In this document: piece after piece, positions 1-48,902 of the stretch
Numbering within the stretch: position 1 is the first letter of the stretch
How the letters are laid out: each line of letters starts with the position of its first letter
Origin: a virus
Direction: 5' to 3' (one strand)
IMG/VR virus record: IMGVR_UViG_3300042311_001128
Coordinates: 1 to 64,000 of that record
DNA: 64,000 bases
Program-made: the position numbers and the translations under genes
Notes under the pieces: model-generated
Database searches by the model: none
What the model was told of the DNA's origin: nothing
The model's input: the letters and a program-made list of their open reading frames with translations, nothing else

Positions 1-950
1 CTCCCGAATACGCAGACTACCCGAAAACCGTAAAAGTTGACGCGGTTGTCGCGGCGGTAGTTGAGGTAGCGAATCGCGGAACGGCAGTAATTAGGATTGT
101 TGCCACAGGAACCGCCCCGCATGACAGAATATGGATTATTTCCGTCTTTTTCAGTAGATTCTAAGCTATTTTCAGCATCAAGATTTTCCTCTTGATTATT
201 ATCAAGCCAAGCACTGCCGTCACTAGGCGCATTTTCATAATTGTCATGCCAGTCATCCATACACCATTCCCAGACGTTGCCGTGCATATCGTATAATCCG
301 AAAGCATTCGGGGGAAATTGACCAACGGGGATAGTTTCCTTTTTATTTTCGCCTTTGGGTTCCGAGGCATAAGTTATAGAAGCATTATAGTTAGCTAACT
401 TATCAGTAAGGGTTTCTCCAAAGTAAAAGGGTGGGTAAGATTCACCTTTTGCGAGGTCTAGGGGTTCTGTCATAGCACGACAAGCGTATTCCCATTGTGC
501 CTCCGAAGGCAGTCTATAATCTCTCTCCGTTAGCTTAGACAGTCGCTGGCAAAACTCTACAGCTTCATACCAATTGACTCTTTCAACGGGTCTAAGCCAT
601 CTATCTATTTCTCTGTCTTGATCTTGATAGGGTTTTTTAAAATAAGATGGATCTTCTTCTAAGTCTATTTTTACTTTTAAATCTGTTCTGGTGGCAATCA
701 CTTTCCATTGACCTTGAGTAATGGGATATTTCCCCATGAAGAAAGGAGGAACCTTTACATTATGTTGGGGACGTTCATTATTATGGCTATCTTTTTCATT
801 TTTAGGAGAACCCATTGTAAAAGTACCATCAGGTATAAATACCATGTCGAGGTCAACGTTATTTGGTAGAGTTTCTGTAAAACAGTTAGCAGTGTGGGTG
901 GTAGTTTTAATGATTTCGCCGCGAAGGTTTACTGTAGGGGTTTTAAACAT
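1..950 (-). CDS. FGE-sulfatase (C-type lectin fold) protein, DGR variable-protein-like, partial
   Basis: The frame is open from an ATG at 950 to the left edge (about 316 codons), so the gene is partial. It carries the formylglycine-generating-enzyme family signature: FIPDGTFTMGSP near residue 40, KYPITQGQWKV, YRLPSEAQWEYACRA and YDMHGNVWEWC, then the C-terminal RGGSCGNNPNYCRSA and a GFRVV end. Proteins with this fold serve as ligand-binding variable proteins in cyanobacterial and phage DGRs. The last ~110 bases (about 10-120) are dense in AAC/AAT-derived codons (Asn, Tyr, Asp, Ile, Leu), as expected for an adenine-mutagenised variable region. Downstream on this strand, where the template repeat and reverse transcriptase normally lie, is outside the window. 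Probable role is a tail-tip adhesin or a displayed binding protein; a true sulfatase-activating enzyme is less likely. It shares 30+ near-identical bases with the gene at 48372. Confidence 0.85.
   Translation of the reverse strand, partial: MFKTPTVNLRGEIIKTTTHTANCFTETLPNNVDLDMVFIPDGTFTMGSPKNEKDSHNNERPQHNVKVPPFFMGKYPITQGQWKVIATRTDLKVKIDLEEDPSYFKKPYQDQDREIDRWLRPVERVNWYEAVEFCQRLSKLTERDYRLPSEAQWEYACRAMTEPLDLAKGESYPPFYFGETLTDKLANYNASITYASEPKGENKKETIPVGQFPPNAFGLYDMHGNVWEWCMDDWHDNYENAPSDGSAWLDNNQEENLDAENSLESTEKDGNNPYSVMRGGSCGNNPNYCRSAIRYLNYRRDNRVNFYGFRVVCVFG
10..122 (-). other. candidate DGR variable region (VR)
   Basis: On the minus strand the codons between the invariant RGGS and GFRVV motifs are almost all explained by A-to-N changes in an Asn-rich (AAC/AAT) template: for example TAC, GGC, GTC, CTC, ATT and TTT sit where relatives have Asn, while invariant codons (CGG GGC GGT, TGC CGT, GGT TTT CGG) contain few or no A. 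This is the usual DGR footprint. The template repeat is not in the window. Confidence 0.6.
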
Positions 951-1176
951 AATGTCCTTTCCTTGGTATTAGTATTTTAACAAAATTGATGAGCAGGACT
1001 CACTAAAACTTTAATTTCTTGCTGGGGGATAATCCTCACGTCCCATCATCGCCAATCCGAACCGCTCCCCACCGCACTTAATCAAGCAAAATCGGATTAA
1101 GCCAATTTGACGGGCAGTGCTAACCAGATAAACGAACTAGACAATAAGAGTGTAAAAAAAATAATATTGGGGGATA

Positions 1177-7211: not shown

Positions 7212-10103
7212 ATGGTAACACAATCCTCGAACCGTGTCAAGATCGATAAAAACAATCCTTGCCCCCACTGTGGTAAGCCTGATTGGTGCTATATGTACAC
7301 ATCTGAAGACGGCAATTTACTCTCGGTCTGCAACCGAGATCACGAACCCGCACCGGGATGGGAAAAATCTTCTAAATTAGATAATCAGGGCAAGCCAATC
7401 TACTATTTTAAGAAAGAAGTCAAGTTTTCTGGCTATAAAAAAGAAAAAACCCAATATTTTCTTTATCCTCCCCTTGTCAGTGGGGCGAGAATCTGCGTGT
7501 ACCGCAAAGACTATCAAGAAGATGGTGTTTGGAAAAAGGATATTAGACAGAAGCACTCTACAGACGATGGTAAAACTTGGGAGTGGGGCATAGGTGATAT
7601 TGAGTACAAAGATATACCTCTTTACCGTCAAGACCGCCTAGAAAAGGCTATTAAAGAAGGGATCCAGATATTTGTAGTAGAAGGCGAGACTAAGGTAGAG
7701 AAACTAGAATCTCTAGGATTAGTTGCCACTTGTAATATAGGCGGATCAAAAAAATGGCAACCGTCCCACACAGAAGCTTTAAAGGGAGCAAATCTGATTT
7801 TATGCCCTGATCGTGACAAAGGGGGAGTGTCTCACTGCCAGAAAATTTATCAAGATTTCCCCGATGCAAAATGGCTTTATGCCTATCCAGATTCTCCTTT
7901 GTGGAATCATTTACCAGATTCTCAAGGGGTAGATATTCTTAATTGGATTGAAGAAAAGAAGGTAACTCTCGATACATTGTTAACTTCGATAGTTGATAAA
8001 CCAAAAGAAATAAAAGAGAGCAAAGAAAAAGAAACCATAGCAAAAGAAACGATGACTTTCCAAGACCTAATAACAGCTATTGACGGCTGTATTGGTCAAG
8101 ACGAAATTACCCGAACTCAGTGGCAAGAAAAAGTCGATCTGTGGGCAAAAGCCACTGGTAGGAAACCAGCAGAAATACGGAATTTAATCGACATCCGCAA
8201 AACGGAAATAGCGGAAGGTGACGCTATTAAAATAGGATTAGAGGGATTTTTAAAGGGCAAGCATTATCAGCAGAAAGAGATTGATCTTTTTGAGATACTT
8301 CCGAAACCTTTAGCCGAAGCGATTATAAGCCGTGCCAGGACATTAAATCAACCCCCAATTAGATTACTGCATTCTTTATGGCCAATACTAGGAGCTATTT
8401 TAGGAAGTCGGTTTGCAATTAACCTCCGAACTACTGTAAGAGAAAGGGAATGCTGGAAGGAATACCCGATATTCTATTGTGCAGATTTGGGCGGGGTTTC
8501 TACTGGTAAAACTCTCACTCAAAACGAAGTTTGTCGGGTTTTGAAAAGAAAAGATTTAGCCGAGCAGAAAAGAGTTACTAAGGAACAATCCACACTAGAC
8601 GATCTAAAAGCTGCGTGGCAAGAAATGTCAGCATCAGATCGCAAGGCAAACAAAACAAACGCTGAAATCAACCCTCGTCTTTATGAGAAAGAACACTGTC
8701 AGGCGCGTCGGTGGTTTTATGATGAAGGTACTCTTGATGGCATCTTAAAAACGATGTCCTTGCAACCTTCTTGGCAAGGTGGGGTAGTCGTATATGACGA
8801 ATTATCGGGATTTTTTGAAGGATTAAATCAGTACCGATCAGGTGGTAAAGGTAACGACCGGCAACGAGACTTAAGCAACTGGAATGGCCCTATCCGAAAT
8901 ACTTTTGACCGCGTAAACAAAGACAATCGATACTATTTAGATGGGCAAACACTTAATAAATTAGGTGGGATACAAGTCGAGAAACTCAGGAAATATCTTG
9001 ATTTATCTAATGATGTCGATGGGGCAGTTTCTCGGTATCTTTTCTTGCTACACGAACCCCTTGATCCTCGTCCTGGTAAGCCGCCAGAAGACCCTAATTC
9101 TATCGATGAGTGTATCGAAACACTGGTCAATCAAATCAGTGGAATTAGCCTAGAAGCTGATGAAAATGGGATTATCGATCCTTATAATTGCTGGTTTAGC
9201 GAAATCGGAGAAAGTTATGCCTGGGGCATTAAGTATCACTACGAGATACTTATTAAGAAGTATCGAGCGATTAATCCATCATTTGCTTCCTATCTAGGAA
9301 AACAAATGAAGACTTTTTTAAGGCTTACATTAAGCATCCATCTTCTCAATTGGATATTTGATCCAGATAATACTAATCTTTACAGTATTCCTGTACAAAC
9401 AGCCATTAAAGCTGCTAAGATGACCGACTTCTATATCAGTCAATTCTTGACAATTCAAGGAGTTACATCTCAGGATGAGAATCCAGTACAAGGCATTTTA
9501 TCTGAGATATGGGAGATTGTCAAAAGCGCAGGTCAAATCAAACCTCGGGACGTTGCCCAAAAATTCGGCGGGCGTAAAATTAATGGGGAAAAAGTAAATA
9601 CATCTATCGCCCGTACCCTACTTACTCAGCTAGAGCAAGCTGGCTATGGACGATTAGAGGTCAAATCAAGGGGTATGATACTGCACTATCAAGAGCCAAA
9701 AGAATTAGAAACTTTTGAGATAGAAGATTCTCTGGAATATCAATCAGAGATAAAAGAAGAAATTGTTCAAGTTGCCAGTCCCACTTTCACACACCCAAAA
9801 AATGAATCGATCTCTAATTCTGACATAGTAGAAGTTGAATCGGAGCCAGTAATCGATGAGTTATCGGCTGATGGTGTACACATTGATAGCCTTCCTGATC
9901 TTGAGAAAGAAAAGGTGCTAGTGCGGACGGCTGCATCTATAGAGATAGGGGGGCGAATTATCCCACCGAGAGCGGTCGGAAAAGTTACAGAAGTAACTTT
10001 TGATAATCAATGGCTTTTGAGGGTAGAAACTGTTTTAAATGGGTCTGTGATCATTTTTACAATTCCGTTTTCTGATTGCTATTTACAGAATATAAGCACC
10101 TGA
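7212..10103 (+). CDS. replication protein: zinc finger + TOPRIM-like (DUF3854) + DUF3987 ATPase
   Basis: This 963-aa multidomain protein has an N-terminal zinc ribbon (CPHCGKPDWC ... CNRDHEP), a TOPRIM-like part (IFVVEGETKVEKLESLG, then ANLILCPDRDKGG), and a DUF3987-type helicase/ATPase with Walker A GGVSTGKT (near residue 430) and Walker B VVVYDELSGFF. The last ~70 residues form a small beta domain (GRIIPPRAVGKVTEV) resembling an SH3 fold. Such primase-helicase fusions replicate plasmids, satellites and some phages. It is probably the main replication initiator/primase here. A hairpin lies just before it; the start ATG has only a weak ribosome site. The C-terminal charged linker (~830-890) looks disordered. 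Confidence 0.8.
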   Translation: MVTQSSNRVKIDKNNPCPHCGKPDWCYMYTSEDGNLLSVCNRDHEPAPGWEKSSKLDNQGKPIYYFKKEVKFSGYKKEKTQYFLYPPLVSGARICVYRKDYQEDGVWKKDIRQKHSTDDGKTWEWGIGDIEYKDIPLYRQDRLEKAIKEGIQIFVVEGETKVEKLESLGLVATCNIGGSKKWQPSHTEALKGANLILCPDRDKGGVSHCQKIYQDFPDAKWLYAYPDSPLWNHLPDSQGVDILNWIEEKKVTLDTLLTSIVDKPKEIKESKEKETIAKETMTFQDLITAIDGCIGQDEITRTQWQEKVDLWAKATGRKPAEIRNLIDIRKTEIAEGDAIKIGLEGFLKGKHYQQKEIDLFEILPKPLAEAIISRARTLNQPPIRLLHSLWPILGAILGSRFAINLRTTVRERECWKEYPIFYCADLGGVSTGKTLTQNEVCRVLKRKDLAEQKRVTKEQSTLDDLKAAWQEMSASDRKANKTNAEINPRLYEKEHCQARRWFYDEGTLDGILKTMSLQPSWQGGVVVYDELSGFFEGLNQYRSGGKGNDRQRDLSNWNGPIRNTFDRVNKDNRYYLDGQTLNKLGGIQVEKLRKYLDLSNDVDGAVSRYLFLLHEPLDPRPGKPPEDPNSIDECIETLVNQISGISLEADENGIIDPYNCWFSEIGESYAWGIKYHYEILIKKYRAINPSFASYLGKQMKTFLRLTLSIHLLNWIFDPDNTNLYSIPVQTAIKAAKMTDFYISQFLTIQGVTSQDENPVQGILSEIWEIVKSAGQIKPRDVAQKFGGRKINGEKVNTSIARTLLTQLEQAGYGRLEVKSRGMILHYQEPKELETFEIEDSLEYQSEIKEEIVQVASPTFTHPKNESISNSDIVEVESEPVIDELSADGVHIDSLPDLEKEKVLVRTAASIEIGGRIIPPRAVGKVTEVTFDNQWLLRVETVLNGSVIIFTIPFSDCYLQNIST

Positions 10104-11501: not shown

Positions 11502-11876
11502 ATGGACACATGGCAAATAGCTTGGAAAATATTAAAATTTTGCAGGGAACAACACCCAAATCTAAGATGGGACATCAAATCTGTAAGAAAAGACTCAACA
11601 TATATTTATGGATCAGATTCTTTTATTGAATTAACATTAAGGGTTCACAAAGAATGCGAATTTGAATATATTTTAGGTTCTTCTAAAATATCACCTCCTA
11701 TGCTCTGGCTAGGCACGTTTCACGTTTGGATGAATTTTGAAAAAGATAGTGACATAGATTTTACTCTTTATGAGACAGACAAAACATGGAACGAAAAAGA
11801 TTGGGTATTATCCAAACAATCTCGAAAAATAATGTTAAATATTTTTAACTTTATTCTCGATGAAATCCAAGAGTAA
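11502..11876 (+). CDS. hypothetical protein, paralogue family 'TWQIA' member 2 (124 aa)
   Basis: This is a tandem paralogue of the previous gene with the same start (TWQIA), centre (LGTFHVWMN) and C-terminus (NIFNFILDEIQE). Two more distant relatives follow at 12243 and 12724, making a four-gene family expansion typical of fast-evolving phage accessory proteins. Function unknown. Confidence 0.65.
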   Translation: MDTWQIAWKILKFCREQHPNLRWDIKSVRKDSTYIYGSDSFIELTLRVHKECEFEYILGSSKISPPMLWLGTFHVWMNFEKDSDIDFTLYETDKTWNEKDWVLSKQSRKIMLNIFNFILDEIQE

Positions 11877-21185: not shown

Positions 21186-22469
21186 ATGGCAGTTCTAATG
21201 GCAAAAAAGAAGAAAAAGGATGACAAATTAAGAGGCTCTCAGCGATCCCTTACTTCACCTAGTATCGTGTCGGTATCACGTCGCTACGATTTGGAGATTA
21301 CGGAAAATCCTATCCGTGATCCGAGAATATCAAGAGAATTAATCGAACTTAATCAATGGTGCTATGAAGTGATCCACGCCCTTGACATGGCCGCTTCTGA
21401 TACCTTCGCATCTGACGATGGAGACGATCAGGGATGGGTAGTAGCCAAAACCCTTGATGATGAAGAAACTCCTATTAACCCAGAAGTATTTGCCATTGCA
21501 GAAGACATTAGGTTAAGAAAACAGGATTTTTCAACCTACATGATTGGTGGGGATAGACTCAAGAAAGCCCTAAGATGGGCATTAGGGAAAGGAGAATGTT
21601 TTCTAGAGTTGGGCATTGAACGAGAAGGGTTATCTGCCAACAAGTCTAAAGATTTTGGTGTAGCAAAGACTCTTTATTTACCTACCTTTGAGATGTTTAG
21701 AAAAGAAACAGATCAAGGGGAACTAATTGGTTTCGAGCAAAGAAAATATGTCTCGGAGTCTGACCCTGATTATTTTTTTGAACCCTATAAAATCTGCCAT
21801 ATTCGCCATGAACCTGATTTTCTTTATGGTCGCTCTCTTTGGCTGGCTTCATTAGATGCTTGGGCTGACGTTAAACAGGCTTTTGATAATTTGATTAGGG
21901 CATCTAATGACTTAGGAGTTTCTCCGACTCTGCATATTATGCCAGGTATTTCTACCGAGCAAGAAAGAATTTATGAGCGAGAATTAGAAATCCGTAGAAA
22001 AAGTGGCATTATAACCGATCATATTCTCAGCTATCCTGGACAAGATATTCGCAAAATGACTAATTTTAACTCTGATTTAACAGGGTTAATTGATACTCTT
22101 TTACAATGCCGGTACAAGCTAATTATCCCTGGATTCCCGACCTATTTCTTCCCGGGATTAGAATCAAAAGGGGGAACTAAAGAGTTATCCCGGTCGCCTG
22201 ATCGTCGCTATTCTAGGATGAGATACGGATGGTGTCAGCTTCTTAGCGGTGCTATCAAACAGGTAATTGATACAGAAATCATTCTCAGAAAAGGATTAGA
22301 TTTTTATGCGGAAAATGCCAGAAATAAATATCGGATACTGTGGCCAGAATGGAGTGAATCTATAGATGGTCTATCAGGAGGGGAGGTTGAAGACACTGAC
22401 TCTGATTTAACCGATGAAGAAACTAATAAACAACCTATCAAGAAACTAAATATAAATCAAAATGATTAA
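21186..22469 (+). CDS. portal protein
   Basis: This 427-aa protein has the layout of phage portal proteins: a basic N-terminus (AKKKKKDDK), an N-terminal alpha/beta part (RELIELNQWCYEVIHALDMA), a central KICHIRHEPDFLYGRSLW segment typical of portal wing/stem entry (the 'yG.S.l' motif), then DVKQAFDNLIRAS and an acidic C-terminal tail. It starts the head-assembly module. Its last codons overlap the start of the inserted haloperoxidase gene by 8 bases, and a similar stretch of DNA reappears beyond that gene (see findings). Confidence 0.8.
   Translation: MAVLMAKKKKKDDKLRGSQRSLTSPSIVSVSRRYDLEITENPIRDPRISRELIELNQWCYEVIHALDMAASDTFASDDGDDQGWVVAKTLDDEETPINPEVFAIAEDIRLRKQDFSTYMIGGDRLKKALRWALGKGECFLELGIEREGLSANKSKDFGVAKTLYLPTFEMFRKETDQGELIGFEQRKYVSESDPDYFFEPYKICHIRHEPDFLYGRSLWLASLDAWADVKQAFDNLIRASNDLGVSPTLHIMPGISTEQERIYERELEIRRKSGIITDHILSYPGQDIRKMTNFNSDLTGLIDTLLQCRYKLIIPGFPTYFFPGLESKGGTKELSRSPDRRYSRMRYGWCQLLSGAIKQVIDTEIILRKGLDFYAENARNKYRILWPEWSESIDGLSGGEVEDTDSDLTDEETNKQPIKKLNINQND
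22434..22466 (+). repeat. left flank similarity of the haloperoxidase insert
   Basis: TATCAAGAAACTAAA followed by AAATCA at the portal 3' end resembles TATCAAAAAGCTAAA followed by AAATCA at 24173-24202, right after the haloperoxidase stop. Most bases match, with a short gap. Confidence 0.4.
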
Positions 22470-24171
22470 TATTTATCCTACGGTAAAACCACTGACATTC
22501 CCAAGTCCTACCTTAAGTTCTACCTTAAGTGTCTCACTACCAGATTTAGTAGGCAGTTTTGGCACGATTAATTTACCAACTACGGTTGACTTCGGCACTC
22601 AGGGAAGTGCACAGGTAATTGTCACCAATCAAGGACAGGGGATCGCCAGTGGTCCCATTACTGTCAAGCTGTACATTTCCACTGACGGTCAGATTGACAG
22701 TAACGATGCCTTACTCACCAGTGTCAGCACAAACTTGAACCTAAATGCCGGGCAGTCAGTCACCCTAAACTTAACGTATAACAACAATACTTCAGTCATC
22801 GCTCCGGGGGCTTACTTTCTCATCGCTCAAGTTGATGCAAATAACCAAATTGCCGAACAACTGGAAACCAATAATGTCACCAGTAAATTAGTATCGGGAC
22901 TCAATACTAACGCCGTCATCGACTGGAATGCGATCGCCTTAAATGCAGTTCAAGCTGAGGGAAAAGCGGGTAGGGGAGTCGGACCGACAGTAGGTTCTCG
23001 CTTAATGGCGCTGGTTTCTACTGCCGTCTATGATACGGTCAGTGCCTTCAACACTTTATATCCCTCCTACGCTGTAGATGTGAACGCACCAGCAAATACC
23101 TCGTTGCAGGCGGCGGTAGTTGGTGCTGCTTATCGAGTTCTTTCTACTCAATTACCTGGACAAAGTAGTTTGTTCTTACAGCAATTATCCAATTCTCTAG
23201 CAGAGATTCAGGACAGTGCCACCGCGGAAAGCCGGGGGTTTAATTTGGGCGTTTTAGTGGCCAATCAGAGCCTTAATTTACGCGCTAATGATGGTTCCAA
23301 CGACAATACACCTTTCACTGCGCCACCGGGAGACTACGTTTGGCGACCAGAAACCTCGGTCCCCACTGCTGGGGTAGCACTTGGTGCGAACTGGGGGGGA
23401 GTAGATACTTGGACAATTGGCGACATTGACCAGTTTGTTGCGGACAATGAACTTGATGTGACTCTTGATGGCCGTCCTGACACAAATCCTACATTGTATG
23501 CCGAAGAAATTGAAGAAGTCCGGCTCTACGGTGGCTTGCAAAACACTGCTCTCACTACCACTTTACGCAATGCAGACCAGGCAGAAATGGCTGTTTTCTT
23601 TGCTTATGACCGCGCTGATACCTTCCGTCCCTACGGGCATTTAAACCAAATTGCTCAAAAAATTGCGGTGAGTGAGGGCAATACCTTGCAAGAAGATGCC
23701 AGCCTATTTGCCGCGTTAAATACCGCGCTGGCAGATTCGGTAATCGTTGCTTGGAAAGAGAAATACACTGAACTCCAACCTCGCCCCGATGACGTAATTG
23801 CTGGAGGATTTGCGGCTAATGACGGGATAGCTGCTACGGTGGGCGATCCCAATTGGAAGCCCTTGCTGTCACCATTAATGGAGGTTAATTCCCCACCTTT
23901 CCCGGATTATATGTCAGGGCATTCTGCCATGGGGGGAGCATTTGCGGGAGTGATGACCGAATATTTTGGTGAGGACTATGTATTTAGTGCTGTCTCCCAA
24001 GAGCTTCCAGGTGTCGTTCGTAATTTCGATAGCTTCTATGAAGCGGGAATGGAAAATGCCCTCAGCCGTATTTATGGCGGGGTTCACGTCCGGGAGGCTT
24101 GTATTGATTCTTTTGACATGGGGTTAGCTGTGGGCGAGTTTGTCGCACAAAACTTCTTTCGGCCTATCTAG
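22462..24171 (+). CDS. CARDB + vanadium-dependent haloperoxidase-like (PAP2 superfamily) protein
   Basis: The 569-aa protein has a CARDB-type beta domain at residues ~27-145 and a vanadium haloperoxidase/acid phosphatase domain after ~150. Vanadate-binding motifs are present: K434-x6-R441P442, SGHS at 485-488, and SRIYGGVH at 535-542. Such enzymes oxidise halides with hydrogen peroxide and are widespread in cyanobacteria; some family members are phosphatases. There is no signal peptide. Base composition is visibly richer in G+C than the flanks, and a GCGATCGC (HIP1) site lies inside, so it looks acquired from a cyanobacterial chromosome. It stands alone between portal and minor head genes with no structural logic: a cargo (moron) gene. 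Confidence 0.85.
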   Translation: MINIYPTVKPLTFPSPTLSSTLSVSLPDLVGSFGTINLPTTVDFGTQGSAQVIVTNQGQGIASGPITVKLYISTDGQIDSNDALLTSVSTNLNLNAGQSVTLNLTYNNNTSVIAPGAYFLIAQVDANNQIAEQLETNNVTSKLVSGLNTNAVIDWNAIALNAVQAEGKAGRGVGPTVGSRLMALVSTAVYDTVSAFNTLYPSYAVDVNAPANTSLQAAVVGAAYRVLSTQLPGQSSLFLQQLSNSLAEIQDSATAESRGFNLGVLVANQSLNLRANDGSNDNTPFTAPPGDYVWRPETSVPTAGVALGANWGGVDTWTIGDIDQFVADNELDVTLDGRPDTNPTLYAEEIEEVRLYGGLQNTALTTTLRNADQAEMAVFFAYDRADTFRPYGHLNQIAQKIAVSEGNTLQEDASLFAALNTALADSVIVAWKEKYTELQPRPDDVIAGGFAANDGIAATVGDPNWKPLLSPLMEVNSPPFPDYMSGHSAMGGAFAGVMTEYFGEDYVFSAVSQELPGVVRNFDSFYEAGMENALSRIYGGVHVREACIDSFDMGLAVGEFVAQNFFRPI

Positions 24172-30038: not shown

Positions 30039-30677
30039 ATGGACAAATCCAAGCTTCATAAAACCTCGTTATCTCTTGGAGTAAAAATAGGAACCACATT
30101 AAGTTATGTAGTTTTTTGTAACTACTGTGGTTTTGAAATTCAAGAATGTCCAGACATTAAAAGCATTGAACTGCTAAAAAATGTTATACAGGAAATTGTC
30201 GAGGTTAATCTGATAAAAAAGTACACGCAAGTAAACTGGAAAAATTGGATAAAAACCAGTCAATTAATTATTCCAAATTTTAATGACGCATGGAAGAAAT
30301 TAAAGAAAATTAGGCAAAATTATTTCAGAAAAACAATACAAAAAATGTGGCAAAAAATGAACGACTTTGACTACAGTCAATACGAATATGATATATACGA
30401 AAAACGATGGGACGAGAAAGCGTGGGATGAATTTCAGAAATCATGGGAAGAAGATTGCAGAAAAAGACAAAGAAAACTGGCTAGAGAACTAGCCTACACT
30501 AACGACCTGTGGGAAGTTTTAGTAAAGACAAAGCAAAAAATCACCTACTCTCATTCCCTAACAGATGATTTAAGCGATCTTGATTCTTGGACAAGAAACT
30601 TAGTGGGGGTTGTTGATTTAGGCTCAGAAGACCCCAAAGAATCGTATATTGATTATTTAGTGGAGAAGTATCGGTAA
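30039..30677 (+). CDS. hypothetical Trp-rich charged helical protein (212 aa)
   Basis: Strong ribosome site (AAAGGAGGTACATC). The middle is a long amphipathic run rich in Trp, Lys, Glu (KRWDEKAWDEFQKSWEEDC). The N-terminus contains CNYCGFEIQEC, a possible metal knuckle. No family recognised. Confidence 0.6.
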   Translation: MDKSKLHKTSLSLGVKIGTTLSYVVFCNYCGFEIQECPDIKSIELLKNVIQEIVEVNLIKKYTQVNWKNWIKTSQLIIPNFNDAWKKLKKIRQNYFRKTIQKMWQKMNDFDYSQYEYDIYEKRWDEKAWDEFQKSWEEDCRKRQRKLARELAYTNDLWEVLVKTKQKITYSHSLTDDLSDLDSWTRNLVGVVDLGSEDPKESYIDYLVEKYR

Positions 30678-31384: not shown

Positions 31385-31588
31385 ATGCTTCAACCTAACG
31401 AACTTTCCTTAGAACAGCAGTTCAATATTCGTTCTTTTCAGGCTCAGGTAGAAAAAATGAGTCAGGAGCAAGCGCAGGATTTCTTGATCAAGCTCTACGA
31501 ACAAATGATGGTCAGAGAAAATATGTACAAAGCTTTTCTTAAGCATCGATGGGGATTAGATGATAATCCCTTTCTAAAGCCAGAGTAA
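31385..31588 (+). CDS. hypothetical helical protein (67 aa)
   Basis: Ribosome site TTAGGAGTAATGCT. All-helical, Gln/Glu-rich (EQQFNIRSFQAQVEKMSQEQAQDF). Function unknown. Confidence 0.6.
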   Translation: MLQPNELSLEQQFNIRSFQAQVEKMSQEQAQDFLIKLYEQMMVRENMYKAFLKHRWGLDDNPFLKPE

Positions 31589-31643: not shown

Positions 31644-32012
31644 ATGAAAACCATCTGGAAGTACCCTATTAGAACTTCTTGTCATGAGATTGAAATGCCT
31701 TTAAACGCAGAGATATTATGCGTTCAGTTGCAGAATCATATTCCTACACTTTGGGCATTAGTAGAAACAGAAGAACCTAAGAGGATTTTTGATATTTTGA
31801 CTTACTATACTGGTGACGATACTGGTGACGATTTGATAGATAAAAAAGGACGATACATTGGAACTTATCAACTAGCTGGATTGGTACATCATGTATTTGT
31901 TAGACCTCATCCTGCATCTCCTCAGATAGACCAGGAGCATCTCACCTTTGCAACCCCTAAATCAGGTTTTATGTCAAGCTATTTTGAAAGCCTTGCTAGA
32001 AACCAGTTTTAG
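31644..32012 (+). CDS. DUF7352-like protein (122 aa)
   Basis: The start MKTIWKYPIRTSCHEIEMPL and LCVQLQNHIPTLWALVE match the small family DUF7352, found in many phages and of unknown role. A TGDDTGDD stretch comes from a 12-base tandem duplication. GTYQLAGLVHHVFVRP closes the domain. Confidence 0.6.
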   Translation: MKTIWKYPIRTSCHEIEMPLNAEILCVQLQNHIPTLWALVETEEPKRIFDILTYYTGDDTGDDLIDKKGRYIGTYQLAGLVHHVFVRPHPASPQIDQEHLTFATPKSGFMSSYFESLARNQF

Positions 32013-32071
32013 GGACAAGTATAATTACTTACTTGCATAAATGAGATGCTCCCGATAGACCTTTCGTATAT

Positions 32072-48315: not shown

Positions 48316-48371
48316 ATATTAGTTATCAGTTGTCAGTTATCAGCAAAAACAAATTATTTAGGAGTAAAACA

Positions 48372-48902
48372 ATGATTGAGATTGAAATGATAGAGATTCC
48401 GAATGTAACCTTTAAAATTGGAAAATATCCAATAACTCAAGAACAATATCAAGAGGTAATGGAAACTAATCCTTCTTATTTTATGAACAACCCCCAACAT
48501 CCAGTAGAGCAGGTTAGTTATAATAATGCCGTAGCTTTTTGCCAAAAATTAAGTGAAATAACAGGGAAAAACTATCGCCTACCTACAAATTCAGAATGGG
48601 AATATGCTTGTCGAGCAGGTACAACTACTACATATTATTTTGGTAATGATGTCAATCAGTTAGGAGATTATGCTTGGTATAGCGAAAATTCTGGATTTAT
48701 AACTCATCCTGTGGGGCAGAAAAAGCCCAATGGTTGGGGATTGTACGATATGCACGGCAACGTCTGGGAATGGTGTCAAAACGTTCCCCGTGGGGGCGGA
48801 TTCGACACCTGTGATCATGGATGTCGTGCGGCACGACTTAGTTACCGCTATTTTGAAGAATATTGCCCCAGCAATATTGGTTTTCGGGTAGTTTGTGATT
48901 AA
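48372..48902 (+). CDS. FGE-sulfatase-fold protein 2, DGR-target-like (176 aa)
   Basis: ATG 48372 with AGGAGTAAAACA upstream; the longer frame begins in repeat DNA. It has KYPITQEQYQEVMETNPSYF, YRLPTNSEWEYACRAGTTTT, GLYDMHGNVWEWC and ends RGGGFDTCDHGCRAARLSYR...NIGFRVVCD. Compared with the gene at 1-950 the core is shorter but the C-terminal variable segment lies at the same place. It may be a second DGR target or a decayed one. Confidence 0.75.
   Translation: MIEIEMIEIPNVTFKIGKYPITQEQYQEVMETNPSYFMNNPQHPVEQVSYNNAVAFCQKLSEITGKNYRLPTNSEWEYACRAGTTTTYYFGNDVNQLGDYAWYSENSGFITHPVGQKKPNGWGLYDMHGNVWEWCQNVPRGGGFDTCDHGCRAARLSYRYFEEYCPSNIGFRVVCD
48790..48899 (+). other. candidate DGR variable region 2
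   Basis: Between RGGG and GFRVV the codons GAC ACC TGT GAT CAT GGA, then CTT AGT TAC, TAT TTT GAA GAA TAT fit A-derived variation at template Asn codons, with TGT CGT and GGT TTT CGG as constants. No template in the window. Confidence 0.45.

Follow-up and report, generated by a model that had tools for sequence, protein, structure and literature searches.

A DGR target gene on a likely Microcystis phage, probably rewritten in trans by the retroelement of its host

What diversifies the gene at the left edge of the window, the stretch of 64,000 nucleotides analysed here (G000:C1:1-64000, in a virus record of 87,616 bp), which also encodes a terminase, a primase/helicase and a tape-measure protein, among other genes of phage type? 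The gene (VP; 3..950, minus strand) encodes a stand-alone domain of the FGE/C-type-lectin fold (PF03781, FGE-sulfatase, E=1.9e-55), and the DGR variable protein of Treponema (2y3c) is among its matches in the PDB. The ORF (950..3) is open at the contig edge, with 316 codons seen and the stop lying beyond the edge, and the C-terminus reads RGGSCGNNPNYCRSAIRYLNYRRDNRVNFYGFRVVCVFG. The 99-bp variable region (VR; 21..119, minus strand; RGGS...GFR) falls in this domain at the 3' end of the gene, as is the case for DGR targets. A constant segment downstream of the VR, at the contig edge (1..20, minus strand; GTAGTCTGCGTATTCGGGAG), matches over all of its 20 bp the flank of a template (TR) in the Microcystis genome G036, and may represent the homing-site side of the target (IMH-like). 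An earlier note on this DNA had proposed a DGR variable region of the FGE fold with A-directed changes. This proposal is borne out by a real template: the VR differs from the TR of G036 at 11 positions, 10 of which are at template A and one elsewhere (hypergeometric p=7.6e-6).

The same note had placed a reverse transcriptase (RT) and the template just left of the window, and here it was mistaken. Immediately left of the window, at the right end of the circular record, we found instead a tail gene, together with another VR allele of the same phage. The right end of G000 runs back into the same FGE-fold gene as the left edge, and a separate IMG/VR record, L005, which has the right-end allele, is continuous over the junction (100% identity across 2,666 bp). 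The G000 genome is thus circular and holds two alleles of one VR. The two ends overlap by 265 bp, of which 126 bp are exact (window 141..266, corresponding to record 87,491-87,616; unstranded) and lie just upstream of the polymorphic VR, while the rest differs in the VR and its edges only. A de Bruijn assembler run at k=127 could have left precisely such a 126-bp overlap where the sequence branches. We ruled out a reading in which each contig end has its own VP copy and an RT lies between them, since L005 spans the junction. Leftward extension, the check proposed in the note, thus yields a second VR allele, and neither a template nor an RT was found anywhere in the 87.6-kb record.

The second allele (record 87,355-87,479) shows 33 mismatches to the left one, all of them within window positions 1-140 and none in 141-1315. 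It is 96 bp long and differs also at non-A sites. Its departure from the left allele continues beyond the TR-homologous part, for as much as 21 bp on the upstream side (window 120-140), and these upstream differences look like the product of recombination. Its template was found neither in 12 Microcystis genomes nor in 391 genomes of the order (one genome per species), in which the closest sequences were other templates, at 82-87% identity. The right-end allele may have originated in another host strain, or may have arisen via recombination.

Searches with the RVT_1 profile and with a Microcystis DGR RT as the query were both empty for G000 and for 21 related viral records, and a phage-encoded RT was therefore rejected. 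The host RT query also found no RT in Ma-LMM01, MaMV-DC, MaMV-DH01, MaMV-DL02 and Mic1. This query is not blind, as it recovered RTs in host genomes and in 169 public phage records. Among the viral contigs, relatives of the host RT occurred in two loci only, at 47% identity. A BLAST search of G000 with the VR returned the two VR alleles only, and no template repeat. Accordingly, there is no complete DGR cassette on G000, as neither an RT nor a TR is present in this replicon.

Microcystis, a bloom-forming cyanobacterium, is likely to be the host of the G000 phage, because Microcystis genomes match short repeats and gene fragments of the window at 88-100% identity, and because the nearest public phage homologues of the FGE gene belong to Microcystis phages. 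Shared sequence appears to tie G000 to G036-like Microcystis strains. In the Microcystis genome G022, an operon (L026) is composed of TIR-CHAT, VMAP-C, MoxR, a 1,250-aa GUN4-FGE protein (VP1), a 352-aa RT, the TR and a second FGE gene (VP2). VMAP-C, MoxR, GUN4-FGE and TIR-CHAT are thus present in the host locus, and the vWA part gave no Pfam match; the layout is that of a VMAP ternary conflict system, as set out in PMC7159879 and PMC10907252. At the phage gene the FGE domain alone is present, and not the VMAP/MoxR-vWA system. In L026, which comes from a Microcystis MAG, both VRs (8030-8100 and 11660-11730) are collapsed or truncated; an assembly effect of the variable region is the probable cause. 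Among the 12 Microcystis genomes, RTs related to that of G022 were found in G036 (99%), G024 (75%) and G032 (66%), and an RT together with a matching TR in G036, G022 and G024, the match being to the left allele only. In G036, the two in-genome VRs show 16 and 14 differences from the template, and every one of these is at A. Each Microcystis genome contains 6-19 matches to the template region, many of which are VP genes, and other cyanobacteria also hold homologous complete DGRs.

The VRs of other phages were compared with the G036 template in the same manner. The numbers of differences at A and at non-A sites were 12/0 for L011, 13/0 for L014, 15/1 for L024 and 17/2 for L025, and the VR of the isolate Ma-LMM01 showed 18 differences at A and 3 at non-A sites. 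All 28 template-A sites lie at codon positions 1 and 2, and the non-A comparison was limited to those positions, which removes the simplest explanation by selection. Over ten phage VRs, template-A sites were changed in 149 of 280 cells (28 sites, 28/28 polymorphic), as compared with 7 of 380 cells for the non-A sites at codon positions 1/2 (38 sites). The difference gave p=5.6e-59 in Fisher's test, in which the cells are not independent, and p<=5e-5 by permutation of the site labels. Template A was changed to T in 87 cases, to G in 44 and to C in 18. Some phage VRs differ at 2-10 non-A positions from every template compared. Within a partial sample of host VRs, the template itself was the nearest host sequence for five of the ten phage VRs (the left allele, L006, L011, L014 and L024), and none of the ten copies any host VR compared.

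Change in place was seen in Fukuivirus-like contigs. L011, L014 and L025 are mutually collinear around the VP gene, and L011 and L025 are collinear with Ma-LMM01 as well, which indicates that the gene stands at its ancestral place in these contigs. Between L011 and L014, which have the gene at this same genomic place, the upstream flank shows 8 differences in 691 positions and the VR 11 in 99, and all 11 VR differences are at template A (p=1.7e-7). The phage-specific sequence is unchanged on either side of the TR-homologous segment. This pattern speaks for replacement templated by cDNA rather than for recombination with a gene of the host, although it does not prove it. The VP of these contigs (L014:8640-8937; also L011, L013 and L025) extends about 60 residues beyond the VR; this tail is hydrophobic, rich in glycine and alanine, and perhaps anchors the protein in a membrane. 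In Ma-LMM01 and MaMV-DC (Fukuivirus), the FGE gene is annotated as a kinase or as hypothetical; these phages resemble G000 in having a homologous VP (57-60% identity) with a VR that matches a Microcystis template, and differ from it in that the gene has its own Fukuivirus place, outside the G000-type cassette described below.

The phage VP DNA is 92.6% identical to the FGE domain of the Microcystis GUN4-FGE protein VP1 (L026:7169-7970). Joined directly to this domain is a 5' leader (948..1031, minus strand) that is 94% identical to L026:3358-3443, the leader of the host MoxR gene, immediately before the start of that gene (3441). Given these two identities, the phage VP seems to be a copy of the operon that has collapsed to leader and FGE domain. 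A 20-bp direct repeat (GGGGGATAATCCTCACGTCC; 1024..1043, plus strand) has its second copy at record 87,289-87,308, and the pair flanks VP; a single copy is found at the VP-less sites of four sibling phages (L164, L165, L198 and L221). The repeat is followed by the right part of a mobile cassette (1044..1127, unstranded), the limits of which are at about record 87,264 and window 1,127, and many sibling phages are without the entire segment 87,265..1,127. Nearly the same limits recur in the Mu-like phages L006, L008 and L009, so that unrelated phages share one cassette; in L006 it lies next to genes for a Mu-type transposase and a MuB-like AAA protein. Of 68 viral loci that contain the neighbouring tail gene, many of which are short contigs, two have VP, namely L005 (L211) and L007 (L203), and in L007 it lies at a different genomic place. 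The site beside the tail gene holds another insert of about 1.1 kb in L181, L184, L192, L203 and more siblings (protein MLRRVQQFLDSGD...), suggesting that it is an insertion hotspot. The possibility that the cassette is a common Microcystis MITE was discarded, as it had no match in 12 genomes in a search run without a positive control.

For the G000-type VP, then, the target is an orphan, the template and RT lie in the host, the pattern is A-only, the origin is in the host and the gene sits in a cassette. We consider that this VP is probably a phage-borne, RT-less DGR target that is rewritten in trans by the host DGR. Rewriting on the phage DNA itself we infer from the alleles, the presence of two VR alleles with identical surroundings in one record being among the support for it. 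The main rival, which we regard as unlikely, is that VRs are diversified on the host chromosome and that phages gain them ready-made, through gene capture or homologous recombination with host VPs. The host derivation of the VP gene, the abundance of VP genes among the template-region matches of each Microcystis genome, the identity of the 42 bp upstream of the VR of the left allele to a host VP in G036, and the differences of the right-end allele outside the TR-homologous part are all in line with such capture. However, exchange in the Fukuivirus-like contigs is limited to the TR-homologous segment, with phage-specific flanks kept on both sides, and no phage VR equals a host VR in the partial host sample compared.

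It is very improbable that the phage has an RT and a template of its own that were missed by the assembly. The record does break inside the VR, its ends are non-identical and its closure relies on a second contig, but L005 joins the ends without a gap, and the 21 further viral records and the five named Microcystis phages are likewise without an RT. Fast evolution of a binding surface by positive selection, without any retroelement, is hardly tenable: most changes do fall at codon positions 1 and 2, yet at these very positions the change rate of template-A sites was about 30-fold that of non-A sites (0.532 vs 0.018), and the actual template sits beside an RT.

The sensor-like FGE domain of VP derives from the VMAP/MoxR-vWA conflict operon of the host and moves among Microcystis phages in a short cassette. 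If the host DGR does rewrite VP in trans, the host DGR RT would copy the host TR with errors at A, during infection or during residence in the cell, and the mutagenised cDNA would presumably be substituted, in trans, for the VR on the phage. The phage progeny would then carry many versions of the protein, and the VP product may serve as a decoy that binds the target of the host sensor. From the origin of the gene alone, we tentatively hypothesise that phages exploit the host mutator in this way; such an RT-less conflict-sensor domain, diversified in trans, could possibly furnish a swarm of decoys against the DGR-diversified sensors of the host. That phages keep a sensor domain suggests that the sensor matters in the conflict between phage and host.

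Among known systems, the Bordetella phage BPP-1 carries both RT and TR itself and diversifies a receptor binder at its tail tip (mtd). Mtd and VP are alike in being mutagenised phage proteins of the CLec fold, whereas the G000 phage is without RT and TR and its VP is derived from a host sensor. Cyanobacterial DGRs diversify FGE/CLec domains of VMAP/MoxR-vWA ternary conflict systems, according to PMC7159879, PMC7517822 and PMC10907252. G000 shares with them the VP domain and the style of the template; unlike theirs, its target is on a phage, as an FGE domain alone, with no adjoining RT or template. Two of these papers also describe remote DGR targets, in cyanobacteria (PMC7517822) and in one Thiohalocapsa genome, where DGR 4 and 5 match the TR of DGR 2 (PMC10907252). 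In Thiohalocapsa, as in G000, the VR and a remote template agree at the non-A sites and activity in trans is deduced, whereas in G000 the template and the target are in separate replicators, host and virus. In the open-access literature found, trans DGR targets lie within one genome only, and no phage gene for which a host DGR supplies the template is described in it. If true, the writing of a phage gene by a host DGR would tie two replicators to a single mutator. It would also provide a natural readout of whether the targets of cyanobacterial DGRs act as antigen sensors, as an untested proposal has it. Since phages of the Ma-LMM01 type have already been isolated, a direct test is possible.

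Several other elements of the record were observed. Outside the window, at G000 78,954-81,200 (L265:155-2400), a 567-aa Cas12u2/Cas12f-like protein is encoded (PADLOC Cas12u2, E=6.9e-123), followed by a CRISPR array of eight 36-bp repeats with spacers of 35-39 bp, for which no convincing spacer target was found among the loci compared. Within the window, a second small FGE-like ORF (48330-48902; 190 aa) corresponds to PHROG 18508, 'kinase'. A 569-aa protein (22462-24171) has CARDB and PAP2/vanadium-chloroperoxidase-like domains, with DNA 89-93% identical to three Microcystis genomes, and is possibly a phage-borne vanadium haloperoxidase. Two MITE-like repeats of about 120-130 bp (30545-30675 and 31934-32053) have many near-identical copies in Microcystis. 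A 67-aa ORF (31385-31588), the DNA of which matches 12 of 12 Microcystis genomes at 88-89%, encodes a protein that we take to resemble NblA (phycobilisome degradation).
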